A DNA stretch of 64,000 nucleotides from an uncultured Marinifilum sp. (lineage in GTDB: Bacteria; Bacteroidota; Bacteroidia; Bacteroidales; Marinifilaceae), in the NCBI RefSeq assembly GCF_963677195.1, contig NZ_OY781918.1, positions 2,716,923 through 2,780,922 of the forward strand. Reading direction: 5' to 3'. Positions 29,138-51,523 of the stretch are shown in pieces. The position numbers were made by a program, and so were the translations under genes. Position 1 is the first letter of the stretch. Every line of letters starts with the position of its first letter. Under the pieces are notes generated by a model that ran no database searches, was not told the DNA's origin, and saw only the letters and a list, made by a program, of their open reading frames with translations.

Positions 29138-29176
29138 TATTGGTTTTGTTAGTTTCCAATTCTAAAAATCCGACTT

Positions 29177-31027
29177 ATGCCTTTAATTGTAACCAATAAA
29201 GATAAGTGTAATCTTAGTTATACTTGTATTCGTGTTTGTCCTGCCAAAGCAATAAAAATAGAAAACGATCATGCTATAATTATTCCAAATCGTTGTATTG
29301 GTTGCGGTAATTGTGTTAGTGTTTGTGCACAGGAGGCAATAGAATATCGCAAGTCGGATAGTATTGTAAAACAGCTATTAGGTGGAATAGATCCTGTTGT
29401 TGCGATTTGCGATCCTAGTATATCGGGTGAATTTGACGACATATTAGATTATAGGAATTTTGTAGGTATGATACGGGCTTTGGGTTTCGATTATGTTGTT
29501 GAAGCTGCATTTGGTGCCGATTTAGTTGCCTACAAGTATAAAGAGTTATTCGATAATTTTCACGGTAAATATTATATTTCAACAAAGTGTCCGGCATTGG
29601 TAAATCAAATAGAGAATTTTCATCCCGATTTAGTTGAAAACTTAGCTCCAATTGTTCCTCCTAACATTGCAATGGCAAAAGTTGTGCGTAAAAAGTATGG
29701 GGCCAATGCCAGAATTGTGTCGCTTTCGCCATGTATTGCAAGTAAAAATGATGTGAAAGCCTTTAATGGTTCCGACGGAGATATTCATGCAGTTTTAAGT
29801 TTTGTGGAGCTTCGCGAATTGTTCCAAGAACGTGGTATCACAGAAAATTCGGTTGAATTTTCGGAGTTCGACCCTCCATTTGCTCGCTTAGGAGGATTAT
29901 TTCCCATAAGCCATGGTTTATTTCAGGCTGCCGATATCGATGTAAGTATGTTAAATGGTGGAATTATTAGTACCGAAGGGCGCAATAACTTTTTACGCTC
30001 CATTAATGAGTTTAAAACACAGCACAATTTAAATCAGCATCTTGATTTATTTTATTGTGAGGGATGTATTATGGGGCCAGGAACTTCAAAAGGAGGCCAT
30101 AAATTCTCACGCCGATCTCAGGTTATAAAGTATGTTCGTAAAAGGCTTAATAATTTCGATGAAGAACAATGGCAAAAGGAAATAAAAGAGTATATAAACC
30201 TTGATTTAAGCAGAGGATTTAAATCGAAAGGGCAATCCTTGCCAATTCCCTCAGAACAGGAAGTGCGCGATGTTCTTATTGAAATGGGGAAAGAAAAGCA
30301 TGAGGATCAGCTAGGTTGCGGATCTTGTGGATATGAATCGTGTAAGGAATTTGCAATTGCAAAATGTCAGGGATTGGCTAATTACGAGATGTGTTCTTCT
30401 TATACGATTAAGAATATGAATACTTATATTAAGGAATTAGGAAATGCCAATGAAAAATTATCAAAAACAAAAACAGCATTAAAAGAATCGGAGCGTATTG
30501 CTAAGGAAGAACGTAGATTAGCACAGGAAGCCTCCGAAACAGTATCGGCAATGCTACAAAAATTGCCTTCGGGTTTGGTTATTGTCGATGAAAATTTAAA
30601 AATTATAGAATCGAATAAAAGTTTTGTTGATTTATTGGGTGAAGAAACGCGTATGCTAAATGAAATTATTCCTGGTTTAGTGGATGCCGATTTAACCAAA
30701 TTAATATCTTTTCATAAGCTTTTTTCTACTGTTATATTAAATGGTGAAGATATTTTAAATCGCGATGTTCATTTTGGTTCTCAATTGTTTAATGTGTCGG
30801 TTTTTACAATTAAGAAAAATAAAATAGTAGGTGGAATTATTAGAGACTTATACGCACCCGAAGTAAGAAAAGAAGAAGTGATTGGAAGAGCCAGAGCGGT
30901 TATTAAGGAAAATTTGCAAACAGTGCAGCAAATTGCGTTTTTATTAGGCGAAAGTGCATCTAAAACAGAAAAATTACTGAACTCGATTATTAAAACTCAT
31001 ACTACTGGCGAAGACGAAAAAAGCTAA
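29177..31027 (+). CDS. Sensory [FeFe]-hydrogenase-like protein with PAS domain, copy 2
   Basis: Same architecture as copy 1, but diverged at metal sites. The first ferredoxin motif has lost a ligand: Cys11, Ser14, Cys17, Cys21. The second is intact (Cys40/43/46/50). In the hydrogenase domain the first ligand is Cys138 (STKCPAL), preceded by Lys137 where turnover enzymes have the proton-relay Cys. The second is Cys186 (LSPCIASKND). The third motif is YCEGCIMGPG, so Cys294 and Cys297 are two residues apart instead of three. The Fe-S domain keeps Cys381/384/389/406. A coiled coil (about 415-455) absent from copy 1 precedes the PAS domain (about 460-560). Whether an H-cluster can assemble is uncertain. 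It is probably a sensor specialised for another signal. Confidence 0.85.
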   Translation: MPLIVTNKDKCNLSYTCIRVCPAKAIKIENDHAIIIPNRCIGCGNCVSVCAQEAIEYRKSDSIVKQLLGGIDPVVAICDPSISGEFDDILDYRNFVGMIRALGFDYVVEAAFGADLVAYKYKELFDNFHGKYYISTKCPALVNQIENFHPDLVENLAPIVPPNIAMAKVVRKKYGANARIVSLSPCIASKNDVKAFNGSDGDIHAVLSFVELRELFQERGITENSVEFSEFDPPFARLGGLFPISHGLFQAADIDVSMLNGGIISTEGRNNFLRSINEFKTQHNLNQHLDLFYCEGCIMGPGTSKGGHKFSRRSQVIKYVRKRLNNFDEEQWQKEIKEYINLDLSRGFKSKGQSLPIPSEQEVRDVLIEMGKEKHEDQLGCGSCGYESCKEFAIAKCQGLANYEMCSSYTIKNMNTYIKELGNANEKLSKTKTALKESERIAKEERRLAQEASETVSAMLQKLPSGLVIVDENLKIIESNKSFVDLLGEETRMLNEIIPGLVDADLTKLISFHKLFSTVILNGEDILNRDVHFGSQLFNVSVFTIKKNKIVGGIIRDLYAPEVRKEEVIGRARAVIKENLQTVQQIAFLLGESASKTEKLLNSIIKTHTTGEDEKS

Positions 31028-35997: not shown

Positions 35998-36024
35998 TAA
36001 ATCGATTTACTAAACCGATTTAGT
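35998..36024 (+). promoter_or_regulatory. Twin LacI-family operator-like palindromes
   Basis: TAAATCGATTTA (35998-36009) is a perfect 12-bp palindrome with a central CG. It abuts ACTAAACCGATTTAGT (36009-36024), whose 6-bp arms ACTAAA/TTTAGT are perfect. Both have the CG-centred form bound by LacI-family repressors and end 15 bp before the lacI-type start codon, which suggests autoregulation of the operon. I did not find a second copy near the downstream PUL. Confidence 0.65.
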
Positions 36025-36038: not shown

Positions 36039-37037
36039 TTGAAAAAGAAATCAATTAAAGATATTGCTCAAGAGCTTGGTTTGTCTAAGACTACCGTTTC
36101 TTTTGTTTTAAATAATAAAGGAGATGAGAAGAATATTAGTAAAAAAACACAAGAAAAGATTTTAGCTTACGTGCGTGAGGTTAATTATCAGCCAAACCAA
36201 ATTGCCAAAAGTTTAAAAAAAGGAACTACCAATACAATTGGGTATTTGGTGCCCGATATTTCTAATCCTTTTTATGCCAAAATAGGTCGCTTAATTGAGG
36301 ATTTATTAGCAAACAAGGGTTATCAACTTATTATTGGTAGCACCGATGAGAAGCAGAAAAAAGAGGATGCTCTTTTAAATATGTTTGTTAATCGTCAGGT
36401 TGATGGTTTAATATTGGCTTCTTGTTTTGAGAATTTGGGTATGCTAAAATCTTTAGCGGCTCAACGTTTTCCTATGGTGTTTTTCGATAGAGAAGAGCCT
36501 GATTTTTATGCGAATTATATTTTGGTAGAGAATAAAGAATCTATGCAATTGGCAGTTCAGAAGGTAATTGATAAGGGAGCTAATAAAATTGGACTTTTAT
36601 CTATTACCCCAAACGTATATTCTTTAAAACTTAGAATTGATGGTTACAAACAAGCTTTAGCCGATAATCAGATTGATGTAAATGATGATTTAATAAGGAT
36701 TGTAGACATTAACAATTTGAAGGAAAGTTCTAAAAATGAGTTAGAGTATTTAATGAAAGAAAAGGTGGATGCAGTGGTGTTTACCAATAATCAAATTACA
36801 GCTAATGCTATTTGGTTAATGAATGTAAATTATAGGGAACAGATTGGAGAAGTAAAGTTTGTGAGTTTTGATAATCTCGATTTGTTTGATTACTCATTGC
36901 CTGTGGTGACTTCTGTAGCTCAGCCCATTAGCGAAATAGCAAAATACTCTGTTGATATACTGTTAGAAGTTATGAAATTGACAGATATAATTAGTAAAAA
37001 AATAGTGTTGAAACCTAAATTAATAGAACGTTTATAA
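36039..37037 (+). CDS. LacI-family transcriptional regulator
   Basis: The N-terminal helix-turn-helix SIKDIAQELGLSKTTVSFVLNNKG, then hinge helix PNQIAKSLKKG, and a periplasmic-binding-protein-like effector domain (NTIGYLVPDISNPFYAKIGRLIE). The start is TTG at 36039, immediately before KKKSIKDIAQ, and no ATG is available at that point. At 332 aa the length is typical. It leads an operon with a sugar MFS transporter (12-bp gap) and a ROK kinase, so it most likely senses a sugar or sugar phosphate handled by them. Tandem palindromes just upstream are its probable binding sites. Confidence 0.92.
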   Translation: MKKKSIKDIAQELGLSKTTVSFVLNNKGDEKNISKKTQEKILAYVREVNYQPNQIAKSLKKGTTNTIGYLVPDISNPFYAKIGRLIEDLLANKGYQLIIGSTDEKQKKEDALLNMFVNRQVDGLILASCFENLGMLKSLAAQRFPMVFFDREEPDFYANYILVENKESMQLAVQKVIDKGANKIGLLSITPNVYSLKLRIDGYKQALADNQIDVNDDLIRIVDINNLKESSKNELEYLMKEKVDAVVFTNNQITANAIWLMNVNYREQIGEVKFVSFDNLDLFDYSLPVVTSVAQPISEIAKYSVDILLEVMKLTDIISKKIVLKPKLIERL

Positions 37038-37049
37038 TTAAGTTATTTT

Positions 37050-38207
37050 ATGAAAGAAAAAGCTTCGATAGGAAAAATACTCCCGGTAATGTTTGGTTTT
37101 TTTATTATGGGATTTGTTGATGTGGTTGGAATTGCCACTAATTACGTAAAAACCGATTTTCAGTTAAGTGATACAGTGGCCAATATTTTACCTGTAATGG
37201 TATTTTTATGGTTCCTGGTATTTTCTGTGCCAACAGGATTATTAATGAATAAGATTGGTAGAAAAAATACGGTAATGCTAAGTATGGCAATAACATTTAT
37301 AGCTATGCTAGTACCATTTGTAGCTTATAACTTTACTGTTGTTTTAATTGCTTTTGCTCTTCTGGGAATTGGAAATACAATTATTCAAGTTGCCTTAAAC
37401 CCTTTATTAACAAATGTTGTTTCTGGAGATAAGTTAGCAAGTAGTTTAACATTAGGTCAGTTTGTAAAAGCAATTGCGGCTTTTCTAGGACCTATTATTG
37501 CTGGTTTTGCTGCCGGAAGTTTGGGAAATTGGAAATTAATTTTTCCTCTTTATGCTGTAATTACAGTTGTTTCTACTATCTGGTTATGGTCTACATCAAT
37601 AAATAAAGAGCAATCTGAAGAGAAAAATGTGTCGATTATTAATTGCTTTGGTTTGTTAAAGGACCCTTATATTTTGGCATTTTTTATTGGTATTTTATTG
37701 GTAGTTGGAATTGATGTTGGATTAAATGTAACAATACCAAAATATCTAATGGAAAAATGTAGTATTCCTTTAGAACAGGCAGGATTAGGTATTAGCCTTT
37801 ATTTTGTTGCTCGTACTGTTGGAACATTCTTAGGGGCTATTATTTTAAGTAAATATTCTGCCTCTAAAATATTTATGTACAGTATTATATTGGGAGTATT
37901 TGGCTTTGTTGGAATGCTACTTGTAAGTAATCTTGTGTTGCTTTCTGTTTTCATTTTTGTAGTTGGTTTTGCTTGTGCAAATTTATTCTCAATTATATTT
38001 ACCTATGCACTTAAAAGACAACCAGAAAGAGCAAACGAGGTTTCAGGATTAATGATAATGGGAGTTTCGGGTGGTGCAATTGCACTATTTTTAGGTATGG
38101 TATCCGACGCAGTAGGAAGTCAGGCTGCTGGTATTGTTGTTTTACTAGTGTGCTTACTATACTATTTTTACCTGGGTAAATTATTTGCTAAAACTGATGC
38201 AAAATAG
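37050..38207 (+). CDS. MFS sugar transporter (FucP/NagP-like)
   Basis: About twelve membrane helices. Motifs include GLLMNKIGRKNTVML (MFS loop 2-3 signature) and GNTIIQVALNPLL, which resembles the fucose/glucose/N-acetylglucosamine permease branch of MFS. At 385 aa it is slightly short, but both six-helix halves seem complete. The position between a LacI regulator and a ROK kinase indicates uptake of a hexose or amino sugar into the cytoplasm; glucose, mannose and GlcNAc released by the neighbouring PUL are all plausible. The substrate is not determined by sequence. Confidence 0.88.
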   Translation: MKEKASIGKILPVMFGFFIMGFVDVVGIATNYVKTDFQLSDTVANILPVMVFLWFLVFSVPTGLLMNKIGRKNTVMLSMAITFIAMLVPFVAYNFTVVLIAFALLGIGNTIIQVALNPLLTNVVSGDKLASSLTLGQFVKAIAAFLGPIIAGFAAGSLGNWKLIFPLYAVITVVSTIWLWSTSINKEQSEEKNVSIINCFGLLKDPYILAFFIGILLVVGIDVGLNVTIPKYLMEKCSIPLEQAGLGISLYFVARTVGTFLGAIILSKYSASKIFMYSIILGVFGFVGMLLVSNLVLLSVFIFVVGFACANLFSIIFTYALKRQPERANEVSGLMIMGVSGGAIALFLGMVSDAVGSQAAGIVVLLVCLLYYFYLGKLFAKTDAK

Positions 38208-38227
38208 TTTATAGCATAAAATATAAA

Positions 38228-39328
38228 ATGATGAACATTTGGAGTGATAAAAGAGTTGTATTAACTCTCGATGCAGGAGGAACAAACTTTGTTTTTTCGG
38301 CAATAAAAAGTGGTGAAGAAATTATAGAACCTATTCGAAAAGCTTCTAATGCTGATTGCCTAGATCAGTGTTTGAAAAATGTAATTGATGGTTTTCAGGA
38401 GGTTTTAAATATATTAGAAGAAAAACCGGTAGCAATTAGCTTTGCATTTCCGGGTCCGGCCGATTATAAAAATGGAATTATTGGCGACTTACCTAATTTA
38501 CCCGCATTTAGAGGCGGTATTGCCTTAGGTCCAATGCTCGAGGAGCATTTTAATATGCCGGTTTTTATTAATAACGATGGCGATTTGTTTGCTTATGGCG
38601 AAGCTCTTGGAGGCGTTTTGCCCGAAATTAATAAACGTTTGGAATTAGCCAATAGTCCTAAAAGATATCGTAACCTTGTGGGTGTAACGCTTGGTACAGG
38701 TTTTGGAGGTGGACTGGTGCATAATGATGAGCTGTTTACAGGCGATAATTCTATTGCAACAGAGGTTTGGTTAACAAGCTCACGTGTGTTTCCAGAGCGC
38801 TTTGCCGAAGAGGGAATTAGTACTCGAGCTATTCAGCGTGAGTTTCTTGAACGTGCATCTAATAAATATGTTAATGAGTTAATGCCTAAAGATGTTTATG
38901 ATATTGCAATGGATGCTAATAATGCCGATCAAAAGGCTGCATTGGAGTCATTCAGGATTTTTGGAAAATGCTTAGGAGATAGTTTGGCCAATATTTTAAC
39001 GATTACCGATGGTATTGCTGTTTTTGGTGGAGGACTAACTGGTGCTCACGATTTATACATGCCTGCAGCTTTGGAGGAGATGAATGGTAAGTGCTACACA
39101 GCCACTGGTGAAGATCTTCCTCGTTTGGTACAGCAGGTTTACAATATCGATAATGAATCGGAATTTGTAGAATTTGCAGCCGATCAATCAAAAGAAATTG
39201 TAATTCCAGGTACTGATAAAACCATAAAATATGATCCAAATCCTAGATTAGCTGTTTGTTCCAGTAAGTTGGGCGCAAGTAAAGCTATTGGAATAGGTGC
39301 TTATGCGTTTGCATTAAAGAATTTGTAG
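38228..39328 (+). CDS. ROK-family sugar kinase, atypical (no CxCGxxGC zinc motif)
   Basis: ATP-dependent sugar kinase fold: phosphate motif LDAGGTNFVFS at the N-terminus, substrate/catalytic INNDGDLFAYGEALGG with the catalytic Asp in NND, and GVTLGTGFGGGLVHN. The usual ROK zinc-binding stretch (His followed by CxCGxxGC) is absent where it should appear after the GTGFGGG loop; the sequence there is DNSIATEVWLTSSRVF. The protein is also longer (366 aa) than most ROK kinases. It would phosphorylate the sugar imported by the upstream transporter. Fructokinase, glucokinase or mannokinase cannot be separated by eye. Confidence 0.85.
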   Translation: MMNIWSDKRVVLTLDAGGTNFVFSAIKSGEEIIEPIRKASNADCLDQCLKNVIDGFQEVLNILEEKPVAISFAFPGPADYKNGIIGDLPNLPAFRGGIALGPMLEEHFNMPVFINNDGDLFAYGEALGGVLPEINKRLELANSPKRYRNLVGVTLGTGFGGGLVHNDELFTGDNSIATEVWLTSSRVFPERFAEEGISTRAIQREFLERASNKYVNELMPKDVYDIAMDANNADQKAALESFRIFGKCLGDSLANILTITDGIAVFGGGLTGAHDLYMPAALEEMNGKCYTATGEDLPRLVQQVYNIDNESEFVEFAADQSKEIVIPGTDKTIKYDPNPRLAVCSSKLGASKAIGIGAYAFALKNL

Positions 39329-39462: not shown

Positions 39463-41982
39463 TTAATCTTTACTCACAATATTCTTAAAAGAGAATTGGT
39501 ATTCTTCGTTGTAAAATTTCTGATATAATTTTCTGTAATGCTCGAATGTTTCAATTGCCAAACTGTGTTTGCCTTGTTCAGAAAGAATACAACATTTTAC
39601 TTTAAGTGCTGTTTCATTCATTTCGTCAAACTCAAAAATAATATTTGCAAGTGATAGTTTTATCGATTTATCGATATTTGCTTGTGAAACTATATCCTCT
39701 AATGAGCTTACGATTTCTCCAGTGGTTTTGTCTTTAAAAGAATCTAACCACTCGGGAAAAATATCTCTTAGCATTGTGCCACGCTTAAGAATTTGTATAA
39801 TTATAGCCAGATTTTCTTGATTACCAGTTTCCTTAATTTCTTTAAATAGAATTTGAATATGATCTAAATCGCAAAATACTTCTTCAGGATAAATAATTTT
39901 CCAGTAATTATTATCAAATAAAACTTCTGTTCCCGATATATCTTCTAGTATGTCTCTAAGTTTTCTAATATTTACACCCCTGTTATTTTTGGCTTTATTT
40001 TCAGGTTTGTCGGGCCATAAATATTCCTGAATTCTTTTCGAAGATATACCTTTACCTCCGTTTAAAGTATTCAAAAGAATTAAAAGGAATAATTCTTTTA
40101 GCGTAGGGCTAAATCTGTAAGTAATTTCTTTCCCTTTTTTATCGTATACCTGAAATCCACCAAATAATAATATCGAATTTATTGTTGGTACTTTGTAATC
40201 AGAGAAAGTTATTTCTTCATGATCCGATATAGCTACAGGAAGTTGTATTTTTGATTTTACTCTTTTTCGGATATTTTTTCGAATAATAAATACTAAAATT
40301 AGAACACATATTCCCAAAAGAAAATAAAACAGTTTAACAGGCAAGGGTAATCCTATTCCATTAATATCAAAATCATTTTTACTTCCTGGCTCATAACTTA
40401 TACAGTATAAGTTAACTTCATATTTTTGTTCCTCAAGCTTATGCGAGGTTAAGGCAACCAATTTATTTTCACTTTTCCAGTAATATAAGTCTGTAAACGA
40501 TTCGATATCAAAAAAATTAAAGGGAATACTATCACCAATAAAAACTAATTTTGCTTCGTTAATATATCCTTTAACGGCTCTTAAATAAGTGTTTCGTTTA
40601 ATCGAAGGAAACATTAAAGTATAAAAACTACTATCATTTTTTGTAATTTTCATCGAGCTTACTGGCAGTTTTTGAAACTGTTCGTCGCATTCGTAATCCC
40701 AAACTTCTTTAATTGTTCGATTTTTAAAATCAATTTTATATAAATCGTAATAATATTCTTTTCCAAGTATCTGTTTGCCTATTGTATTTCCAAGTCCTCC
40801 AAATAAATAAGCAATTGTTGAATCTTGGTTGGCAAAGCCTAACGACGATAGATATCTGGGCTCTATTGTATCTCCTTTAAACTCTAGTTGTTTCCATTTT
40901 CTTTCTTTTTCGTTAAAAGATTGAATAATATTGTAGTAAGAGTAATAACCATATCCGCAAATAGTAGAAATTTCATTCGTTAAAGGATGTATAAATTTGT
41001 TGTGATGCCAATATTGAGGAACATCATCTATTGTGCATTCGATATTTCCATTCCAATGCTTTTGATCGGGATTATATCTTGAAAGTTTGTTTTTATTATA
41101 ACTATAAGTTGTAAGCTTAGAGTTTTTGTCGTAGATAATTTGTTGTGAACTTTCAAATACAGGATAACCAACATTGTTAGTTTCTTTGCTTAATAAGCCA
41201 GATTTTAAATTATAAGAATAGTATTTACCATCCATTAATACAAAATCTATATTTTCTTTTTCTTTATTATAGGCTATGGAAGGAACTCCATTAAAATTTA
41301 AAGTGCTTAGTTTTTCCCACTTTTTGTGATAATCAACAACCCAATCGGGGTTGTATAATTTTGCTGTGCGGCTCGAAAGTACATCACGTAAAATATCCTT
41401 ATCTGTTTTCTTAAAAGGCCATAAATGTTTTGGCGATCCATCAATTCTAATTGTTAAATCTTTTATTGATATTGAAGGAACTTCGTCATTGTAAAAACCA
41501 TATTTATTAACAACTCCTAAAGACATTGCAAAATCTGAATTCTCAGGGAATTGAATGGAAGATTGAAGCGTTTTATTTCCAAATTTCAGATTAATATTCT
41601 TATTAATCGCATCGATATGTATCTCAAAATCAACCCATCTGTTGTTTAATGTTTTTAGATCTTCAAGATTAAGGTGAAATTTTGTTTCACGTTTATTGTG
41701 AATAACGAATAAATCGGGAGAACGGAAGTTTACCTGAATTAAATTGTTGCTATTGCTTTCTTTAAGTGATAATATATTGCCATAATATGTATTGGTTTCA
41801 CGAAAGGAAATTTTAAAATGAATAGTAAATTCATTTGTGTAAGATATATTGTTTTGATGGGTTATATCTATTCCGGTTCTGTTTTCTTTGCTTACTTCAT
41901 TGGATTTGAAATAAATACCGTGATCGGCGTAAAGATCGGATATGAATAATAGTAGGATTATTAAGCAATTAATTAATCGCAT
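39463..41982 (-). CDS. Transmembrane SARP/BTAD-like regulator with LamG-like and kelch-like ectodomain
   Basis: A signal peptide (LINCLIILLLFISDLYA) starts the chosen 839-aa protein. Next come a concanavalin/LamG-like region (about 25-185; FTIHFKISF, RWVDFEIHID, DLTIRIDGSPKHLWPF) and kelch/galactose-oxidase-like repeats (about 215-540; TIAYLFGGLGN). One membrane helix follows (about 551-567, LFYFLLGICVLILVFII), then a basic stop-transfer. The cytoplasmic part has a winged helix (about 600-700: FSPTLKELFLLILL, SSKRIQEYLWPD, RGVNIRKLRDIL) and a BTAD-like helical domain to the end (LAIETFEHYRKLY). This is a one-protein path from glycan binding outside to DNA inside. It is divergent from susC and is the only regulator of the PUL in view. 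The start at 42030 would begin before the likely transcript start. Confidence 0.85.
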   Translation of the reverse strand: MRLINCLIILLLFISDLYADHGIYFKSNEVSKENRTGIDITHQNNISYTNEFTIHFKISFRETNTYYGNILSLKESNSNNLIQVNFRSPDLFVIHNKRETKFHLNLEDLKTLNNRWVDFEIHIDAINKNINLKFGNKTLQSSIQFPENSDFAMSLGVVNKYGFYNDEVPSISIKDLTIRIDGSPKHLWPFKKTDKDILRDVLSSRTAKLYNPDWVVDYHKKWEKLSTLNFNGVPSIAYNKEKENIDFVLMDGKYYSYNLKSGLLSKETNNVGYPVFESSQQIIYDKNSKLTTYSYNKNKLSRYNPDQKHWNGNIECTIDDVPQYWHHNKFIHPLTNEISTICGYGYYSYYNIIQSFNEKERKWKQLEFKGDTIEPRYLSSLGFANQDSTIAYLFGGLGNTIGKQILGKEYYYDLYKIDFKNRTIKEVWDYECDEQFQKLPVSSMKITKNDSSFYTLMFPSIKRNTYLRAVKGYINEAKLVFIGDSIPFNFFDIESFTDLYYWKSENKLVALTSHKLEEQKYEVNLYCISYEPGSKNDFDINGIGLPLPVKLFYFLLGICVLILVFIIRKNIRKRVKSKIQLPVAISDHEEITFSDYKVPTINSILLFGGFQVYDKKGKEITYRFSPTLKELFLLILLNTLNGGKGISSKRIQEYLWPDKPENKAKNNRGVNIRKLRDILEDISGTEVLFDNNYWKIIYPEEVFCDLDHIQILFKEIKETGNQENLAIIIQILKRGTMLRDIFPEWLDSFKDKTTGEIVSSLEDIVSQANIDKSIKLSLANIIFEFDEMNETALKVKCCILSEQGKHSLAIETFEHYRKLYQKFYNEEYQFSFKNIVSKD

Positions 41983-42027
41983 ATATAGATTAGAAGCTAG
42001 GTTAAAAATTAAATAGTTTAGATCTGT

Positions 42028-42035
42028 CAAATATA
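42028..42035 (-). promoter_or_regulatory. Probable -7 box for the membrane regulator gene
   Basis: The minus strand reads TATATTTG, 45 bp upstream of the ATG at 41982. No -33 element is clear. It supports the downstream start codon. Confidence 0.45.
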
Positions 42036-42265
42036 TTTAAATATAGCTAGACTATAAAGTATAGCAAAAAAAAATAGGAACTAATACTTAATATTTGTTG
42101 GCACTTATTAATACACAGATATTTTTAATTTATAACGATTGTGTAAAATCATTCTCATGTTATAAATAATTACTTCCATAAATACTATGGACAAAGAATA
42201 TTGTCGAAATGTTAAAAAATATTAAATGCCGCGTAAGGCGCTGTAAACTAAAGTATAGTAGCTGG

Positions 42266-42321
42266 ATTAATGCATTAGAATATCATGTTAATTCAATATT
42301 AATCGTGAATTAATACGTTTG
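42266..42321 (+). promoter_or_regulatory. Phased RTTAAT repeats and -7 box upstream of susC
   Basis: Hexamers ATTAAT (42266), GTTAAT (42287), ATTAAT (42298) and ATTAAT (42309) are spaced 21, 11 and 11 bp, one face of the helix. The last one runs into TACGTTTG (42314-42321), a match to the -7 consensus, about 70 bp before the susC ATG. There is no TTTG at -33, as expected for a promoter that needs an activator. The repeat geometry is like that of SARP-bound promoters. The rest of the 41983-42392 gap is AT-rich spacer with no other feature I can support. Confidence 0.6.
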
Positions 42322-42392
42322 CGCTAGTATTGCAGAGTAAAAAAAACTCACAAGATTTTTTTTGTTCATTGTATAATTAATAATTACTAACT

Positions 42393-45300
42393 ATGAAGAA
42401 ATGCTATTTACGAAATCTTCATTCAGGCTTAAGTAACCCATTAAGCTTTGGAAGGAAGATTGGAAGTTTAGCTTTGCTTTTTGCTGTAATGGCTTTGCCA
42501 ATATCTGCAAGTGCAAACGTTAACAAACTATCCGACGAAAACTCCGAAATTACTGTACAAAAAACTGTAACAGGAACAGTAACGGAAGAGTCTGGAATGT
42601 CATTGCCAGGTGTATCTGTTGTTGTTAAAGGTACAACTATTGGAACTGTAACCGATGTTGATGGTAAATTTGAAATTGCCGCTGACAATTCGGCTATTTT
42701 GATTTTTAGTTTTGTTGGTATGACAACTCAGGAAATTACTATTGGTTCACAATCGGTAATTAATATTGTTATGGCAGCCGATGCTCTACAGGTTGACGAG
42801 GTTGTGGTAACTGCTTTAGGTATTAAAAGAGAAAAGAAAGCTCTTGGTTATGCTGTACAAGATGTAAAAGCTGATGAATTAACTCAGGCTGGTAGTTCTG
42901 ATTTGGTAAGCTCATTGCAAGGTAAAGTTGCGGGTGTGCAAATTAATCAATCTGGTGGTGGAATTGGTGGTACTTCGCGTATTGATATTCGTGGATCTAG
43001 TTCTTTAATTGGAAACGATGAGCCTCTTTGGGTTGTTGATGGTGTACCATTTGATAATGGAAATAGTAGAGATGGTAGTGTTTGGGGAGGAACTTCGCGC
43101 GCAGGAGGTGCTTTCGACCTGAATCCTGAAGATATTGAGTCTATTTCAATTTTGAAAGGACCTAATGCTGCTGCTCTTTATGGAGAACGAGGTGGTAATG
43201 GAGTAGTTTTAGTTACCACTAAAAAAGGAACTAGAGGTAAAGGTTTAGGAATTTCATATTCTGGAAGCTATACTATTTCTAAGGCTGCTTATATGTTAGA
43301 CCTTCAGGATAAGTATGGACAAGGAAATGATGGTATTTATGATATGAATGCAGATGCTTCCTGGGGACCAGAGATGACTGGTCAAATGTTGGAATCTTGG
43401 ACTGGAGAAACTATTCCGTACGAATATCAGAAGGATAGATTGGAAGATTTTACAAGAACAGGAACAAACCAAAAGCATAGTTTAGCCTTTACAGGAGGTA
43501 ATGATGATGGTTCTTATCGTGTTTCTCTTGGTAAAGATATCATGAATGGTATTTATGAGGATCACAAAGTTGAGAAAATAACTTTCGATTTACGTGCAGA
43601 TTATGACATTAACTCTTGGTTGAATATCGATACTAAAGTTTCTTTCTTTAATACTAAGGGTAAAGAAAGACCAGAGATTGGAAATTATTCTTATGTATCT
43701 TATTTCAATACTATGCCAATGAATATTCGTAATCAAGATTTAGCTCCGGGGTATGATATTGTTGGTGGTGAACATGTTGAGAAGCTATACAAAAATCCAA
43801 ATGCAAATCTTCGTAATCCGTATTTCTTGCAAGCGCAAACTACAAATAACGATGAGAAAAACAGAACATTTGGTTATGTTGCTGCTAATTTAAAATTAAC
43901 CTCTGATTTGAAGGCTAAGTTTAAATATGGAATGGATTTCTACCAATTCGAAGCAGTTGAAGGATATTTGTTTGCAGATAATGTTGACTCAAGCAGACCA
44001 AACTATAACCCTACTCAATCAAATTTCAAAGAAGAGAATTACGAATTCTTGTTGAGTTATAATAAAGAAATAAACGAAGATTTTACGATTGGTGTAAATG
44101 TTGGTGCCAATAGTATGAAGAACAGATTTAGAGAATTAAAAGCTACTTCAGGTCGCTTGTCTTCTGAAAATGATTTCTTTTTGGCAGCTGGATCTAATAT
44201 TAATGCATCAGAAAGCATTGTTGAAGAAGAAGTTCGTTCATTATATGGATTTGGTCAGATTGCATATAAAAATATGATTTTCCTTGACTTTACAGCTCGT
44301 AATGATTGGTCTTCTACACTTACTTCGTCAACATCAGAATTCGATAATTCTTATTTTTATCCTTCAGTTAGTTTAAGTGGTTTGGTATCTGATATGATTG
44401 AATTACCAGAATGGTTTTCTTTTGCTAAGATTAGGGGTTCTTGGGCAAAGGTAGGTAAGGCTACAGATCCGTTATTAACAGCTCAAACTTATTCAATTGG
44501 TAATTGGAATTATGGACTTTCTACTGGTAATGTGCCAGAAAATGGAGTGCAGGATAATTTAAAGCCTGAGTTATCAACTTCTTATGAGGTTGGAGCCGAT
44601 TTAAGATTTTTTGGTAATCGTTTAGGATTAGATTTTACCTACTATAACGAAAGAACCAAAAACCAAATTCTTCTTGTTCCTGCAGTACAAAGTTCAGGAT
44701 TTAAAAATATTCTTTCAAATGCTGGTTTAATTGTAAATAAAGGAGTTGAGGTGATGTTAAGAACTGTACCTGTTAAAACTAATGATTTAACGGTAGGTTT
44801 AGATTTTAACTTTTCCAAAAACGAAGGTGTAATGGAAGAATTAACTGATGATGTTCCAAGATATCCTTTTGGCATGTCGGTTTATGCTTATCCAGAACAA
44901 AAGCTAGGTCAGATTGTTGGTAGTGTTTATGATCGTGATGAAAATGGTGAAATTATTATTGACAATAGTGGATTAATGACCATTGCTCAGGATGAGGAAA
45001 TTATTGGTAACCTACAGCCAGATTGGACAGGTTCTATTAATTTAAATGTTGACTATAAAGGTCTGTATCTGTCAGCTTTAGTTTCAATACAGCAAGGAGG
45101 TGATATTCTTTCATCATCAGAGCAGGGAGCTGTTAGTGCTGGTACAGCAGAAAGAACTCTTGCAAATAATCGTATGGCATTCTTTGCTGATGGTGTATCT
45201 GTAGATGGAGGTTCTAATAATGTAATTGTTTCTGCAGAAGAATATTGGAGACAGTTGGCAAAAGTTGATGAAGAGTTTTTATATGACGCTTCTCACATGA

Positions 45301-45545
45301 AATTAAAAGAATTAGCAATTGGATATAATATTCCTAAATCAATTTTAAGTAAGATACCTCACAATCCGGTAAAATCTGCAAGAGTCTCATTGGTTGGAAG
45401 GAACTTATTCTATTTCTATAAAGATACTCCGGGAACTGCTCCTGATGCTAGTGCTTATAGTACCGATTATGCAGCACAAGCGTTTGATTTCTCACCTGTT
45501 CCTTCAACTAGAACATACGGATTCTCACTTAATGTTGGATTTTAA
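42393..45545 (+). CDS. susC: SusC-like TonB-dependent glycan transporter
   Basis: The outer-membrane pore that imports oligosaccharides with its SusD lid. A long signal region ends near ALPISASA. A carboxypeptidase-regulatory-like domain is next (VTGTVTEESGMSLPGVSVVV, about 58-135), then the TonB box region (VDEVVVTALGI), the plug (LVSSLQGKVAGVQI, DIRGSSSL, WVVDGVPFD, ALYGERGGNGVVLVTTK) and a barrel ending TYGFSLNVGF. At 1050 aa the length is normal. No STN signalling domain is present, which fits the absence of a sigma/anti-sigma pair. It is first in the run of PUL genes, 18 bp before susD. Confidence 0.96.
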   Translation: MKKCYLRNLHSGLSNPLSFGRKIGSLALLFAVMALPISASANVNKLSDENSEITVQKTVTGTVTEESGMSLPGVSVVVKGTTIGTVTDVDGKFEIAADNSAILIFSFVGMTTQEITIGSQSVINIVMAADALQVDEVVVTALGIKREKKALGYAVQDVKADELTQAGSSDLVSSLQGKVAGVQINQSGGGIGGTSRIDIRGSSSLIGNDEPLWVVDGVPFDNGNSRDGSVWGGTSRAGGAFDLNPEDIESISILKGPNAAALYGERGGNGVVLVTTKKGTRGKGLGISYSGSYTISKAAYMLDLQDKYGQGNDGIYDMNADASWGPEMTGQMLESWTGETIPYEYQKDRLEDFTRTGTNQKHSLAFTGGNDDGSYRVSLGKDIMNGIYEDHKVEKITFDLRADYDINSWLNIDTKVSFFNTKGKERPEIGNYSYVSYFNTMPMNIRNQDLAPGYDIVGGEHVEKLYKNPNANLRNPYFLQAQTTNNDEKNRTFGYVAANLKLTSDLKAKFKYGMDFYQFEAVEGYLFADNVDSSRPNYNPTQSNFKEENYEFLLSYNKEINEDFTIGVNVGANSMKNRFRELKATSGRLSSENDFFLAAGSNINASESIVEEEVRSLYGFGQIAYKNMIFLDFTARNDWSSTLTSSTSEFDNSYFYPSVSLSGLVSDMIELPEWFSFAKIRGSWAKVGKATDPLLTAQTYSIGNWNYGLSTGNVPENGVQDNLKPELSTSYEVGADLRFFGNRLGLDFTYYNERTKNQILLVPAVQSSGFKNILSNAGLIVNKGVEVMLRTVPVKTNDLTVGLDFNFSKNEGVMEELTDDVPRYPFGMSVYAYPEQKLGQIVGSVYDRDENGEIIIDNSGLMTIAQDEEIIGNLQPDWTGSINLNVDYKGLYLSALVSIQQGGDILSSSEQGAVSAGTAERTLANNRMAFFADGVSVDGGSNNVIVSAEEYWRQLAKVDEEFLYDASHMKLKELAIGYNIPKSILSKIPHNPVKSARVSLVGRNLFYFYKDTPGTAPDASAYSTDYAAQAFDFSPVPSTRTYGFSLNVGF

Positions 45546-45563
45546 TTAATAAAGATGTTTGTT

Positions 45564-47123
45564 ATGAAAAAAATTAATATAATATTATTCGCATTAGGGC
45601 TAATCATATTGGGTAGTAGCTGCTCCGATGATTTTGGTGACATGAATGTACCTTCTGATGCGACGACTTCGGTTGAACCAAAGTTCTTATTTAGTCCATT
45701 AGTTCAGGCTGTTTTTGATAACTATCAAAGAAATGTGAACCTTTACCCAGATCTATATTCTCAATATTGGGCAAATACTGTTAGTGGTTTCTCTTCTCCT
45801 CGTTATGAATATGTGGATGGATGGATTGGAAACCAATGGAGTGAGCATTATACAAAAGATTTGCGTAGAGCAAATTCAATTCAAGATCTTTATGGTGAAG
45901 ATCCATTGTATGTTGATGCTGTAGCAATCAAAGAAATTTGGATGTGTTACTGGTGGTCACGAATTACCGATACTTATGGTGATGTACCTTATTTTAATGC
46001 TGGTAGAGGAGAATCGGTTCCTTACAATTCTCAGGAAGAGATCTATAACGATTTATTTACACGTTTAAATACAGCTATTAACGCAATAACAGGAAATGCT
46101 GACCAATATGAATATAACGAAGGTTATGATGTAATGTATAATGGAGTGGCTTCACAATGGCAGAAGTTTGGTAACTCCTTACGTTTACGTTTAGCAATGC
46201 GTATTTCGAATGTTGATCCTACAAAAGCTGCTGCCGAAGCCAAAGCTGCAGTTGATGGTCCTGGTGGGTTATTGGCTAGTAACGCTGATGTAGCAAAAGT
46301 TCCTATGTGGAGCCAAGGATGGTATGATTATTTACATCAAATGGCTTGGAACTGGAATAATATTCGTATGTCTAAGACAATGTCTGATTACCTTTACGAG
46401 CAATCAAGTTATGGAGAAGATCCTCGTGCATCTAAATGGTTTGCTTATCAGGTAGATGGTGAACCTGTAACTAAGGAAGATGCTGGATTTGATCGTTACA
46501 ATGGTATAGAAAATGGTTATAACTTAGTGCCAAGTAATTCTGATGAGGATTATGCAACAATTAACCTAGAAGGTGGCTATGTTGACTTTGTAGGAAACGG
46601 TGGTGATGACTTAATGTATTGTCCTGTAATGTTTTACTCAGAAGTGCTTTTCTTGCAAGCTGAAGCTGCAATGAGAGGTTGGATTTCAGGAGATGCAAAT
46701 GCATTGTATCTAGAAGGTGTTCAGGCTTCAATGGATTACGTTGGTGTAGATGCTACTGAAGCTAGTAATTATATTGCTGGTCTTCCTACTCTTTCAGGAG
46801 CTACAGAAACAGATCTTAAACAATTAATAACTCAAAAGTGGATTTCGAATTTCCCTAATGGAGTTGAAGGATGGGCTGATTTCCGTAGAACAGACTATCC
46901 AGACATTACTTTACCTAAAGATGGTGTTAGTGGTAGTGCAACAGTTGCTTCGGGAACTTGGGTTAAGCGTGTTCGCTATCCGGTTAATGAACACTTGCAA
47001 AATAGCGAGTTTATGCCAGCTGCACAAAATACTCCGGAAACAGATAGAATGGATATTCGTGTATGGTGGGATACTGCTGATACTAAGTCTAAGTCTAGTG
47101 GTTTAATGAACAGTAATTTGTAA
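45564..47123 (+). CDS. susD: SusD/RagB-like surface glycan-binding lipoprotein
   Basis: The lipoprotein signal peptide ends LIILGSSCSDD, with acidic residues after the Cys as in Bacteroidota surface export signals. The body is the TPR-rich SusD fold: SQYWANTVSGFSSPRYEYVD, EIWMCYWWSRITDTYGDVPYFNAG, GVASQWQKFGNSLRLRLAMR, MFYSEVLFLQAEAAMRG. At 520 aa it is typical of the SusD-like_2 branch. The start at 45564 (MKKINIILFA) is preferred over an ATG nine bases earlier. It forms the lid for the adjacent SusC. Confidence 0.94.
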   Translation: MKKINIILFALGLIILGSSCSDDFGDMNVPSDATTSVEPKFLFSPLVQAVFDNYQRNVNLYPDLYSQYWANTVSGFSSPRYEYVDGWIGNQWSEHYTKDLRRANSIQDLYGEDPLYVDAVAIKEIWMCYWWSRITDTYGDVPYFNAGRGESVPYNSQEEIYNDLFTRLNTAINAITGNADQYEYNEGYDVMYNGVASQWQKFGNSLRLRLAMRISNVDPTKAAAEAKAAVDGPGGLLASNADVAKVPMWSQGWYDYLHQMAWNWNNIRMSKTMSDYLYEQSSYGEDPRASKWFAYQVDGEPVTKEDAGFDRYNGIENGYNLVPSNSDEDYATINLEGGYVDFVGNGGDDLMYCPVMFYSEVLFLQAEAAMRGWISGDANALYLEGVQASMDYVGVDATEASNYIAGLPTLSGATETDLKQLITQKWISNFPNGVEGWADFRRTDYPDITLPKDGVSGSATVASGTWVKRVRYPVNEHLQNSEFMPAAQNTPETDRMDIRVWWDTADTKSKSSGLMNSNL

Positions 47124-47146: not shown

Positions 47147-49012
47147 ATGAAAGCATTTAAAATAAATATAAAAATGTGGTCATACCTTGCTGCTTTTCTG
47201 ATGGTGTTTACCTTCGCAGCTTGTGATGATGACGATAATGGAGTAGGTACTTTTGAAACTGCTTCACTGGAAGCATTAATTTCGGAGGCTGAAAATTTGA
47301 TGGAAACTACCGAAGAAGGAATTAATGCAGGTGATCAAAAGCCAGGATCAAAAGCTGAATTACAAACAGTAATTGATTGGGTGCAATGGAAGATTGAAAA
47401 TGCAGAAAATCAAGAAGATATTTCCGATGCATCAGTTAAGTTACAACGTTATATAGATATCTTTAAAGCTAATGTTGTTGCTGTTGCAATGCCTTGGATT
47501 CAGCAAGAAAATGATACTTATATCCAGATTTCGGATAATATCAAAACGACTCTTGCTGGAGCGTGGACAATTGAATTAAAATGTTATATCGTTGACTTGA
47601 ATACTAAGGGATATTCAAATAATCTATTCTCTGCTGAACAAATGGGGCCTGATAGTGGATTTGGCGCCAGATATTTTAGCGATGGTAAAATTCAGATTGT
47701 TACAGGTAATAGTAATTGGGTAGATTCTGGTGATCAGGCTGGACCAGGTACTATGAAATCCGGAGAATGGATGGATGTTACAATGACTAGTGATGGTACG
47801 CATCATGAATTATTTATTAATGGTTCAAAAGTAGCAGAAATTGATAATACTCACTTATTAGCTGCTGATGCTCCATTTGTAATTGGAAACAGCCCAACTT
47901 GGACTGATCGTGTTTGTAATACATTAGTGAAAGATTTTAGAGTGTGGAATTCTGTACTTGATGAATCAACAATTAATGCTAACAGAACAGCTGAGTTTGA
48001 AGGTACTGAATCCGGACTTGTATGTTATTTCCCTTTTGGTTCAGATTTAGGTTCTTCATTTTCTGATGTAAGTGGTAATTATACTGCTACAATTAAAGGT
48101 AAAGTTGAGTGGGTTGCAGAACCTCCAGTAATTGTATTGGATAAGTCAGCTCTTGAAAATGCTATTCAGGAAATTGATGATTTTAAAGCAACTATTGTAG
48201 AAGGAGATGAAGATGGTGATTATCCTGTAGGTACTATTGCTTATGTTGATGAATTAATTGCTGATGCAAATGATGCATTGGCAAATGAAGGTCGTCAATC
48301 AGCTCTTGATGATAAAGCTGCTTCTTTGTCCGAAGCAATCGAACTTATTAACTCTATGCTTGTTGCTGATACCGATGGAATTTTAATTGACAGAGATGTT
48401 CCCTCAGCCGTTGGTTTAAGAATTACACCTAATTATACTCCACAGGGAGATTATACTGTTGAATTTAATGTAAAAGTTAAATCTTTATTCGGTTATGGTA
48501 CAGGTGAATTCTTTAACAATGGAGAATATGGTGTATGGGTATACGGATACGATGAGTTAACGGAAGAAAATGTACTAGGCTCAGGTGGTTTATGGAACTT
48601 TACTAATGCAGGAAATGGATGGGAAGGTCCAAAAACTGAATCATTGGTAATGAAAACAGGAGAATGGCAACATGTCGCTCTTGTTCATGACGATATAGCT
48701 CGTACAACCAAAATATTTGTTGACGGAGTTGAAGAAGCTGTATTTGAAGATATAGGAGCTCCAAATGTATCAGGTTGGGGTGAAATGTGGCTAGGTAATG
48801 GCTGGGGCAAAATGGATGGTTATATGAAAGACTTCCGTTTATGGGATGTTGCTCGAGATGCAGCTGACCTTGATGCTGAAATTACAGGAACAGAAACCGG
48901 ATTGAATGTTTATTTCCCTCTTGATAGAGTGAAAGGTGTTAAATTCTCTGATAAAACAGGAACATATCAAGGTGATATGAGAGGAATTTCTTGGAATGTT
49001 ATCGAAGACTAA
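47147..49012 (+). CDS. LamG-domain surface glycan-binding lipoprotein
   Basis: The lipoprotein signal ends LMVFTFAACDDDDN, again with the acidic surface-export pattern. A helical FIVAR-like spacer (about 37-115) precedes a first LamG/concanavalin domain (about 120-325; WTIELKCYIVD, GEWMDVTMTSDGTHHELFINGSK). A second helical spacer (about 335-410) precedes the second LamG domain (about 415-620; YTVEFNVKVKS, WQHVALVHDDIARTTKIFVDG). There are no catalytic residues, so I infer a surface glycan-binding protein working with SusCD. It lies 23 bp after susD and is followed by a strong terminator, closing the susCD unit. The same fold type is in the ectodomain of the membrane regulator. Confidence 0.85.
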   Translation: MKAFKINIKMWSYLAAFLMVFTFAACDDDDNGVGTFETASLEALISEAENLMETTEEGINAGDQKPGSKAELQTVIDWVQWKIENAENQEDISDASVKLQRYIDIFKANVVAVAMPWIQQENDTYIQISDNIKTTLAGAWTIELKCYIVDLNTKGYSNNLFSAEQMGPDSGFGARYFSDGKIQIVTGNSNWVDSGDQAGPGTMKSGEWMDVTMTSDGTHHELFINGSKVAEIDNTHLLAADAPFVIGNSPTWTDRVCNTLVKDFRVWNSVLDESTINANRTAEFEGTESGLVCYFPFGSDLGSSFSDVSGNYTATIKGKVEWVAEPPVIVLDKSALENAIQEIDDFKATIVEGDEDGDYPVGTIAYVDELIADANDALANEGRQSALDDKAASLSEAIELINSMLVADTDGILIDRDVPSAVGLRITPNYTPQGDYTVEFNVKVKSLFGYGTGEFFNNGEYGVWVYGYDELTEENVLGSGGLWNFTNAGNGWEGPKTESLVMKTGEWQHVALVHDDIARTTKIFVDGVEEAVFEDIGAPNVSGWGEMWLGNGWGKMDGYMKDFRLWDVARDAADLDAEITGTETGLNVYFPLDRVKGVKFSDKTGTYQGDMRGISWNVIED

Positions 49013-49240: not shown

Positions 49241-51523
49241 ATGCAAAAATTAAAATTAATCAAAACACTAGGCTTATTACTTTTGTTTGGAGTTTCTTTA
49301 GCTTCATGTCAAATGTTTGGAGATAATTCCGAAGATAGTGAAGGCTTAACCAAGTATGTCGATCCTTTTATTGGTTCTGGGGGGCACGGTCATGTTTTTG
49401 TGGGCGCAAATGTTCCATTTGGTGCAATTCAGGCCGGACCAAGCAATTTTCATAAAGGCTGGGATTGGTGTTCCTCATATCATTACTCTGATAGTATTGT
49501 AAAAGGATTTTCGCATTTACATTTAAGTGGTACGGGTTGTACCGATTTGGGTGAGTTTTTAATTATGCCTGCACTTGGTGAGTTAAAAATAAATCCGGGT
49601 ACGCAGGAAAAACCCGAAGATGGCTATGCATCCTATTATCATCACGATTCAGAAAAAGCCGAAGCTGGATACTATAAAGTTCATCTAGATACTTATAATA
49701 TCGATATTGAAATGACAACTACAGAACGTGTTGCCATGCATCAGATAACTTATCCTAAATCAGATAAATCGCGATTAATTATTGATTTAAAGGAAGGAAA
49801 TGGTGATACCGCTACCGAAACTTTCTTCCATAAAGTAAATGATACTTTGGTGGCAGGATATCGTTTTTCTAAAGGTTGGGCTGCCGATCAAAGAGAATAT
49901 TTTGCAATGGTTTTATCAAAGCCAATACAAAGTGTCTTGGTTTACAATGGTCAGGAAAAAATGGAAGGAGATGCTGCAAAAGGAAAAGCAGTTAAAGCTT
50001 TTTTACAATTTTCTACCAAAGCTTTCGAAAAAGTACAGGTTAAATTTGGTATGTCGCCAGTAAGTATGGAAAATGCATTGGCTAATATTAAAACTGAAAT
50101 GCCAAATTGGAATTTCAATGAAATTCTGGCCAATAATAAAGCCAAATGGAATAAAGAGCTCGAAAAGATACAGATTACAACAACTGATAAGGCGGCAAAA
50201 AGAGTTTTTTATACTGCCGTTTATCACACTCTTATTGCTCCAAATATTTTCGATGATGTTAATGGGGAATACAGAGGTACCGATAAAAAAGTATATCAAA
50301 GTAATGAATTTACAAATTATACTTTATTCTCTCTTTGGGATACATATCGTACAGCTCATCCTTTATACACATTAACTCAACAAGAGCGTGTGCCGGACAT
50401 GATTAATTCTATGTTGAATATCTATAAGCAACAGGGAAAATTACCAGTTTGGCATTTGCGAGGAAACGAAACCAATACAATGGTTGGTTACAGTGGAGTT
50501 CCTGTTGTTGTTGATGCTTGTTTAAAAGGTTTTGAAGGAATCGATCTTGAATTGGCTTACGAAGCTGTTAAAACCACTGCTATGGGCGATTTTGAACCAG
50601 GTGTTAAAGAGCTGCAAAAATATGGATACATTCCTTGTGATATGATGCACGAATCGGTTGCCAGTGCAATGGAATACGCAATTAGCGATTGGGGTATTAG
50701 TAAATTGGCCGAGAAACTAGGCAAAATAGAAGATGCTGCATACTTCAAAAAAAGAGCAGAGTCTTATCAGGAATATTTCGATCCTAAAGATCGATTTATG
50801 AAAGGACGTATGAAAGATGGAAGCTGGAGAACACCTTTCGATCCATATTCAGCACAGCACAGGGTAAACGATTATTGCGAAGGTAATGCATGGCAGTATT
50901 TATGGTTAGTTCCTCAGAATCCAGAAGGATTAATTAATTTATTGGGTGGTGATAAGCAATTTATTACAAAATTAGATAGTTTGTTTAGTATTTCTTCCGA
51001 TTTGGAACATGGTGCTTCGGCCGATATTTCTGGCTTAATTGGACAGTATGCTCATGGAAACGAACCAAGTCATCACATTACTTATTTGTATGCCTACGCT
51101 GGTGAGCAATATAAAACTTCCGATAAGGTTCGCTATATCATGAATGAGTTGTATACCGATAAACATGATGGCTTGTGTGGTAACGAAGATTGTGGACAAA
51201 TGTCGGCTTGGTACGTAATGTCATCAATGGGATTTTATCCGGTTAATCCAACTAATGGAGCTTATGTTTTTGGAAGCCCATTGTTCAATCAGGCAAGTAT
51301 TTCTCTTCCGGGCGATAAGAAATTTACAATTATAGCTAACAACAACACCAAAAAGAATATCTATATCCAATCGGTTAAATTAAACGGAGAAGATTATACA
51401 AAATCGTTTATCACTCATAAAGATATACTTAAAGGAGGAACATTAACATTTGAAATGGGAGATAAACCTAATAAAAACTTCGGTGCAAAACCAGAAGATA
51501 GACCTAAATCAATCATGTATTAA
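49241..51523 (+). CDS. GH92 alpha-mannosidase, lipoprotein (first of three)
   Basis: A calcium-dependent inverting exo-alpha-mannosidase. The signal ends GVSLASCQMFG (lipoprotein). The N-terminal beta-sandwich starts KYVDPFIGSGGHGHVF, and the catalytic (alpha/alpha)6 region follows. Motifs: LFSLWDTYRTAHPLY, WHLRGNETNTMVGYSG, catalytic acid Glu547 in CEGNAWQY, GNEPSHH near 606, and the base region GNEDCGQMSAWYVMSSMGFYP (Asp650). At 760 aa the length is standard. Linkage (alpha-1,2, 1,3 or 1,6) cannot be read from sequence. With two more GH92 genes of different motif variants downstream, each probably takes a different linkage. Confidence 0.95.
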   Translation: MQKLKLIKTLGLLLLFGVSLASCQMFGDNSEDSEGLTKYVDPFIGSGGHGHVFVGANVPFGAIQAGPSNFHKGWDWCSSYHYSDSIVKGFSHLHLSGTGCTDLGEFLIMPALGELKINPGTQEKPEDGYASYYHHDSEKAEAGYYKVHLDTYNIDIEMTTTERVAMHQITYPKSDKSRLIIDLKEGNGDTATETFFHKVNDTLVAGYRFSKGWAADQREYFAMVLSKPIQSVLVYNGQEKMEGDAAKGKAVKAFLQFSTKAFEKVQVKFGMSPVSMENALANIKTEMPNWNFNEILANNKAKWNKELEKIQITTTDKAAKRVFYTAVYHTLIAPNIFDDVNGEYRGTDKKVYQSNEFTNYTLFSLWDTYRTAHPLYTLTQQERVPDMINSMLNIYKQQGKLPVWHLRGNETNTMVGYSGVPVVVDACLKGFEGIDLELAYEAVKTTAMGDFEPGVKELQKYGYIPCDMMHESVASAMEYAISDWGISKLAEKLGKIEDAAYFKKRAESYQEYFDPKDRFMKGRMKDGSWRTPFDPYSAQHRVNDYCEGNAWQYLWLVPQNPEGLINLLGGDKQFITKLDSLFSISSDLEHGASADISGLIGQYAHGNEPSHHITYLYAYAGEQYKTSDKVRYIMNELYTDKHDGLCGNEDCGQMSAWYVMSSMGFYPVNPTNGAYVFGSPLFNQASISLPGDKKFTIIANNNTKKNIYIQSVKLNGEDYTKSFITHKDILKGGTLTFEMGDKPNKNFGAKPEDRPKSIMY

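Follow-up and report, generated by a model that had tools for sequence, protein, structure and literature searches.

How might a membrane protein with a LamG-like ectodomain control the polysaccharide utilization locus (PUL) beside it? The question is raised by a 64,000-nucleotide stretch of DNA from an uncultured Marinifilum sp. (assembly GCF_963677195.1, contig NZ_OY781918.1, positions 2,716,923 to 2,780,922; hereafter the window), in which the gene for an 839-residue transmembrane protein (39463–41982, reverse strand, stop codon included) diverges from susC and the PUL that follows it. We think it likely that this protein is a SARP-type one-component activator of PULs, which acts from the membrane through TTAA repeats set 11 bp apart. 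The predicted anatomy and fold of the protein, the synteny of its gene and the conservation of the phased repeats are the observations from which we argue.

Anatomy of the regulator

The longest open reading frame begins at a TTG at 42030 (39463–42030, reverse strand, 855 amino acids), but conservation points to the ATG at 41982 as the start. From this start the protein runs through a signal peptide (about residues 1–19; 41926–41982), a LamG-like β-sandwich (residues 20–219; 41326–41925), a kelch-type β-propeller (220–531; 40390–41325), a transmembrane helix (547–577; 40252–40344), an OmpR-type winged helix (about 601–698; 39889–40182) and a BTA-like helical domain (about 705–836; 39475–39870), all encoded on the reverse strand. 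The signal peptide was read by eye, not with a prediction program, from the sequence and from the alignment of orthologues, to which a signal peptide-like N-terminus is common; the transmembrane helix comes from orthologue hydropathy and the AlphaFold2 model, and the globular domains from that model and from fold matches, with sequence profiles also marking the propeller.

A full-length AlphaFold2 model built on an alignment of 20 relatives (A1) has a mean predicted local distance difference test (pLDDT) score of 82.5, and the LamG, kelch, transmembrane and SARP parts come out as separate units, with linker residues 574–590 below 50. In the Protein Data Bank (PDB), the sandwich (residues 19–219) resembles 4dqa, a protein from Bacteroides ovatus that is putatively carbohydrate-binding (Z 15.8, root mean square deviation (rmsd) 3.1 over 178 residues), as well as laminin LG and pentraxin chains, and the propeller matches the kelch domain of LZTR1 (Z 19.4, rmsd 3.9 over 274 residues).

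The C-terminal part carries the identification. When residues 595–839 were folded alone from a 24-row alignment (A2), the model reached a pLDDT of 94.7, and its top matches in the PDB were AfsR (Z 15.8) and EmbR (Z 15.5 and 14.9), each spanning about 230 residues, with the next unrelated row at 10.3; Foldseek E-values step from 1.8e-5 for the last SARP to 0.029 for the row after it. Residues 601–839 of the full-length model match AfsR in the same way (Z 15.5, rmsd 4.4 over 230 residues). A winged helix followed directly by a BTA helical domain, the arrangement that defines SARPs, is thus what AlphaFold2 predicts, as had been guessed from the sequence. Identity to the solved SARPs is 12–15%. 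The SARP part was not revealed by single-sequence searches of Pfam, NCBIfam or PDB sequences, nor by the A2 profile against the PDB: the single-sequence Pfam scan of the regulator returned kelch and propeller models alone, all scoring under their curated cut-offs, without BTAD, and the NCBIfam scan had zero matches. Pfam BTAD does appear, under its 22.1-bit cut-off, in four relatives (L050, L061, L066 and L065). Conservation across the regulator family is strong in the putative recognition helix (NNRxVNIxKLR-like), in keeping with the constant TTAA core of its suggested sites. Sharing a predicted fold with SARPs is by itself no proof of function.

The sequence-only reading of this DNA had described a single-pass membrane protein, LamG-like and kelch-like outside, with a winged helix and BTAD-like helices inside, and the model and its fold matches bear this out. 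Its 'outside' stands in so far as the ectodomain lies beyond the cytoplasm, but should be taken to mean the periplasm, because the DNA-binding part must be cytoplasmic and positive charges lie on the DNA-binding side of the transmembrane helix. The further proposal, that the regulator's sandwich and the LamG lipoprotein of the PUL bind a common ligand, finds no convincing support in their sequence similarity (BLASTP E 0.026).

A candidate operator at the susC promoter

We aligned the intergenic DNA between the regulator gene and susC from the window and 14 further loci. One block stands out by its invariant columns, 41 of 47 at 42286–42332 as opposed to 34 of 303 at 41983–42285. All 15 susC promoters carry TTAAT-N6-TTAAT-N6-TTAAT and then, 11 nt after the last TTAA, TAnnATTG. 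In the window the triple lies at 42288–42314 and the candidate −7 element, TAGTATTG (TAATATTG in relatives), at 42325–42332, both on the forward strand, as is a further TTAAT (42267–42271) 21 bp upstream of the triple. The Bacteroidota promoter consensus is TTTG at −33 and TAnnTTTG at −7. In the 4.8-Mb genome the exact TTAAT triple occurs once, at susC; a reversed control pattern also occurs once.

Direct repeats at 11 bp close to a −10-type element, the geometry of SARP sites, are therefore present at the sequence level. According to sections of PMC10936776, the direct repeats to which SARPs bind are spaced by 11 or 22 bp, the 3′ one lying 8 bp from the −10 element, and part of PMC5930380 describes 11-bp units made of a heptamer and 4 nt. 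If the repeat unit here is TTAANNN, a boundary that we chose, the spacer to the −7 element is likewise 8 nt. We regard the block as a candidate operator of SARP geometry, and its conservation at the susC promoter supports the earlier suggestion that the regulator controls the PUL.

Separately, the susC leader that precedes the start codon (42333–42392) is invariant in 36 of 60 columns; another signal, for instance a translational element, might lie within it.

Relatives across the Bacteroidota

The regulator is no isolated gene, and relatives are widespread in Bacteroidota. Counting its own genome each time, a whole-protein search found relatives in 27 of 96 genomes, and the A2 C-terminal profile found them in 29 of 393 genomes of the order (E≤1e-20) and in 26 of 395 genomes of a phylum sample (E≤1e-5), 11 of these at E<1e-40. 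Named records, for which we took the best 80 of 217 passing loci, place relatives in Marinifilum, Labilibaculum, Draconibacterium, Dyadobacter, Mucilaginibacter, Chitinophaga, Cyclobacterium, Lutibacter and Emticicia; the viral contigs searched held none.

Clustering of 171 regulator proteins of at least 300 residues from the loci examined, at 55% identity, gave 86 clusters. By ectodomain profiles, 67 clusters have LamG and kelch, three LamG only, three kelch only and 13 neither. Nine of these 13 have Pfam Laminin_G_3 above its cut-off (L059, L061, L105, L116, L133, L113, L063, L139 and L065), L051 and L119 do not, and the scan left out L143 (a truncated open reading frame) and L062. LamG therefore appears, from profile matches, to be the most constant sensor element of the family. 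Among the proteins of the loci examined, the set to which this search was confined, the LamG and kelch ectodomain profiles match just two that are not regulators, both beside truncated regulators.

The link to glycan clusters that had been expected in other genomes is supported. In loci of the same family (L032–L046), LacI, MFS and ROK genes are kept in 15 of 15, SusC and SusD in 14 and GH92 (glycoside hydrolase family 92) in 13; SusC is divergent from the regulator in 14, and in L046 the contig stops at the regulator. Among 74 loci of more distant relatives, 28 have a SusC/SusD label, 16 GH92 and 45 any listed PUL, carbohydrate-active enzyme (CAZyme) or sulfatase label; for 66 named-record loci the counts are 25, 35 and 52, and for 40 arbitrary regions of regulator-bearing genomes they are 5, 1 and 9. 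These counts are rough and not independent, because the two sets partly overlap, Mucilaginibacter alone supplies 23 of the 66 named records and the set of labels was a small one. Immediate neighbours agree with them. Pfam finds Plug in nine, GH92 in six and GH99 in five of 82 proteins on one side, and Plug in seven, GH43 in five, GH92N in two, GH99 in two and GH125 in one of 80 on the other, as against GH76 in three, GH88 in three and Sulfatase in two of 80 control neighbours, with no Plug or GH92 among the 25 of 160 control families listed. Because GH92, GH99 and GH125 all act on α-mannose linkages, this suggests that a mannan or N-glycan theme is frequent at regulator loci.

TTAA repeats beyond the orthologues

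A first scan for any 7-column repeat near the regulators peaked at a period of 11 (120 hits, compared with 76 at 12, 48 at 8, 41 at 15, 39 at 14 and 18 at 10) and was noisy, so we replaced it with a test specific for TTAA. This covered 313 intergenic stretches, 89,529 bp in all, lying no more than three genes from the regulators of 85 clusters, the orthologue cluster being left out. Three TTAA at 11-bp spacing occur 34 times, at 26 of the 85 clusters, as against a mean of 0.56 triples and 0.54 loci (maximum 3) in 200 Markov shuffles. Every other period from 6 to 25 gives 0–6 triples, the sixes falling at 12 and 22, and TTAA leads the 256 tetramers with its 26 loci, followed by ATTA, which overlaps it, with 6. 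In 40 control regions (342 stretches, 83,304 bp) the TTAA triple occurs once. With the orthologue site included there are 35 triples, every one of them in a divergent or co-directional gap; tail-to-tail gaps, which make up 8,574 of 91,378 bp, contain none.

The repeats also follow the regulator when only receptor genes are compared. A triple lies upstream of 10 of 34 regulator-linked susC genes and of 0 of 42 other TonB-receptor genes (Fisher 1.4e-4), the latter comprising 29 regions from 30 loci under looser rules and 13 more; pairs at 11 bp are found upstream of 17 of 34 and 5 of 42, respectively. Where the nearest TAnn[AT]TTG follows at between 5 and 46 nt, it stands at 11–12, 22–23, 33–34 or 44–45 nt in 16 of 23 cases, from 15 clusters (binomial 1.9e-7).

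Mucilaginibacter offers a second footprint. We looked at 19 of its 23 loci and aligned the 16 in which GH92 lies directly downstream of the regulator gene. In 16 of 16, TTAA stands three times at 11 bp between the regulator stop codon and GH92, and [CT]AnnTTTG follows 10–11 nt past the triple; this gap lies behind the regulator gene and would therefore serve GH92. Many Mucilaginibacter loci have another triple two or three gaps before the regulator.

We consider it probable that the Bacteroidota possess, beside SusR, hybrid two-component systems (HTCS) and extracytoplasmic function (ECF) sigma factors, a class of PUL regulators made of transmembrane SARPs with LamG-based periplasmic carbohydrate sensors (often for α-mannan) and a shared code, TTAA every 11 bp, then 10–12 nt, then a −7 element, from which targets could be predicted.

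Proposed mechanism and alternatives

We hypothesize that a ligand, most likely an α-mannan or N-glycan fragment imported by SusCD, acts on the periplasmic LamG–kelch ectodomain, and that the signal would pass, without proteolysis, along the single transmembrane helix and some 20 residues of flexible linker. In the cytoplasm, SARP-type modules would then bind side by side on the TTAA direct repeats at their 11-bp spacing, over the −33 region that precedes the −7 element, and RNA polymerase would be recruited to the susC operon. Sections of PMC10936776 describe such an arrangement for SARPs, in which the side-by-side dimer overlaps the −35 region on DNA and the AfsR dimer contacts sigma region 4 and RNA polymerase.

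Several observations weigh against this proposal or narrow it. The exact TTAA triple is missing near 59 of the 86 clusters, including L065 and L139, of the double-LamG type to which the own genome's second copy belongs, and the short forms, so the code is either not universal or degenerate. Across the own genome TTAA triples show no enrichment, with 10 places as against 15 for the reversed control pattern, and the motif alone therefore defines no regulon. The susC site is dyad-symmetric as well (TTAATTC...GAATTAA), and so could serve a regulator that binds palindromes. As for the statistics, the 34 regulator-linked susC regions come from 31 clusters with the orthologue left out, 29 of the 42 control regions were checked for a regulator within 1.5 kb only, and the phase windows of the −7 element were picked after inspection of the data, except for 11 nt, which the orthologue site had set beforehand. 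A SusC, SusD or listed CAZyme or sulfatase label is absent from 29 of the 74 and 14 of the 66 named loci, and kelch domains often bind proteins.

This last point bears on the alternative that survives best, although we hold it to be unlikely: that the ectodomain senses a protein partner or the state of the envelope and not a glycan. It would suit the best propeller matches, which are kelch domains of eukaryotic protein-binding adaptors, and the short forms (479–531 residues, such as L051–L053), which have small ectodomains and no labelled glycan gene nearby, two neighbours of L052 being housekeeping-like. It fits less well with LamG being the part that the alternative ectodomains have in common, with scores over the Pfam cut-off in L066 as well as in the nine clusters named above, or with neighbours that are rich in SusC, GH92 and GH99 relative to control neighbours.

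An improbable variant keeps the regulator but makes it a repressor, or has it act only once proteolysis has freed its DNA-binding part. What defines SARP-fold proteins is their fold and their sites and not the sign of regulation, and the low-confidence linker could be cut; the position of the repeats speaks for activation, since they lie a short way before the −7 element, as sections of PMC10936776 describe for activation by AfsR. At susC, moreover, a −33 TTTG is not seen 19–21 nt upstream of the −7 candidate, which likewise counts against the variant.

The sequence-only reading had called the membrane protein the only regulator next to the PUL, which does not hold. A LacI-family gene (36039–37037, forward strand) heads a LacI–MFS–ROK operon (36039–39328; MFS transporter 37050–38207, ROK kinase 38228–39328, all by domain scan), and the regulator gene sits between this operon and the divergent PUL, 2.4 kb from the end of the LacI gene. 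That the PUL is under this LacI repressor and the transmembrane protein has a different job nonetheless seems to us quite improbable. The operon is a plausible mannose-type one and its place beside the PUL is conserved throughout the same-family loci. Its promoter carries the tandem palindromes TAAAYCGATTTA (35998–36022), namely TAAATCGATTTA and TAAACCGATTTA, which are kept there in orthologous loci and are likely to be the autoregulatory operator of LacI. The palindrome occurs without mismatch nowhere else, and with up to two mismatches there is no copy in the gap between regulator and susC (41983–42392). The susC block of SARP geometry, by contrast, recurs at the loci of distant relatives, where a LacI-labelled gene is present in 0 of 74 and 1 of 66 named loci.

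That TTAA arrays are simply a general trait of AT-rich Bacteroidota promoters, unconnected with the regulator, is hardly credible: TTAA is common in such DNA, with pairs at other spacings in many regions and at 11 bp in the five control regions noted above, but the 11-bp peak is sharp and triples are next to absent from the other TonB-receptor upstream regions, the random regions and the shuffles alike.

Relation to known regulators

SARPs are best known from antibiotic-making soil bacteria. The present regulator resembles them (AfsR, EmbR and the large and small SARPs of actinomycetes) in its predicted OmpR-type winged helix and BTA fold, and in having direct repeats every 11 bp shortly before the −10 or −7 element, as far as sections of PMC10936776 and PMC5930380 describe these for SARPs. 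It differs in being membrane-anchored, in having its DNA-binding part at the C-terminus behind a LamG and kelch ectodomain, and in belonging to Bacteroidota and their glycan clusters.

The regulator types proposed for PULs are SusR-like proteins, HTCS and ECF sigma/anti-sigma pairs, according to part of PMC3878776. SusR-like proteins of Bacteroides are alike in being one-component membrane regulators with a periplasmic sensor and a cytoplasmic DNA-binding part; they differ in that the repeats of the reported SusR motifs are 67 or 77 bp apart (same source, in part). We saw no homology with SusR in a comparison protein identified by its locus only (L280, 557 residues, at a SusCD/SusE/GH97 locus): it carries DUF6377, which Pfam does not find in the window regulator, and the profile of the regulator's C-terminal domain does not match it. 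HTCS and ECF pairs share the job of PUL induction. Unlike HTCS, the regulator has no kinase, receiver or AraC match in Pfam, and its chain is covered by other folds; unlike ECF trans-envelope systems, the SusC here has no STN hit.

In ToxR/CadC-like regulators the DNA-binding domain is at the N-terminus. They too bind DNA from the membrane with a winged helix, and appear in the fold list at Z 8.3 and 7.9, but this is all that is shared: they lack the BTA domain, and the domain order is reversed in the present regulator.

Literature searches, which covered open-licence papers mostly at listing level, turned up no description of a transmembrane SARP/BTAD regulator of PULs; in part of a paper on extracellular contractile injection systems (eCIS), BTAD is mentioned solely as a domain of regulators close to eCIS loci (PMC8213781). 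A further type of PUL regulator with a recognizable DNA code would make regulons, and perhaps substrates, predictable where the known types are missing. The SARP fold has been studied in soluble activators of antibiotic genes; here it would be signalling from the membrane, which raises the question of how SARP dimerization on DNA is governed through a single helix and a short linker.

The locus and other family members

The content of the PUL is as the sequence-only reading had it. On the forward strand, susC (42393–45545) encodes a TonB-dependent receptor whose Pfam matches are limited to CarbopepD_reg, Plug and barrel models at E up to 0.001, without STN, and is followed by susD (45555–47123) and a LamG (Laminin_G_3) protein gene (47147–49012), both also assigned with Pfam. 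By domain scan there follow two GH92 α-mannosidases (49241–51523 and 51637–53931), a GH125 α-mannosidase (54059–55486), a GH65-like protein (55455–57524), GH97 (57527–59533), a third GH92 (59720–61963) and a sodium:solute symporter of the SSF family (62028–63899).

The own genome has a second copy of the regulator (L066:9078–11201; C1, about 4.26 Mb), of 708 residues with two LamG domains. Its neighbours include sulfatases, GH28, GH29 and GH2, with no SusC or SusD label within the 19.9 kb examined, which makes it a candidate sulfated-glycan locus. Tandem regulator pairs occur in L144 (869 and 271 residues) and in L148 and L149 (853 and 683 residues). Because the 271-residue member of L144 has no transmembrane segment by hydropathy, a soluble SARP-like form may stand there beside the membrane form. 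The short members L051, L052, L057 and L119, at 479–531 residues, have ectodomains of about 170–200 residues and zero TTAA triples within three genes. One 3.4-Mb genome (G702) holds six regulator copies (L104, L107, L108, L110, L112 and L124), and another (G611) four.

Elsewhere in the window, at 25846–31027, two proteins have iron-only hydrogenase large-subunit domains (25846–27555 and 29177–31027), the first with a PAS-type hit as well.

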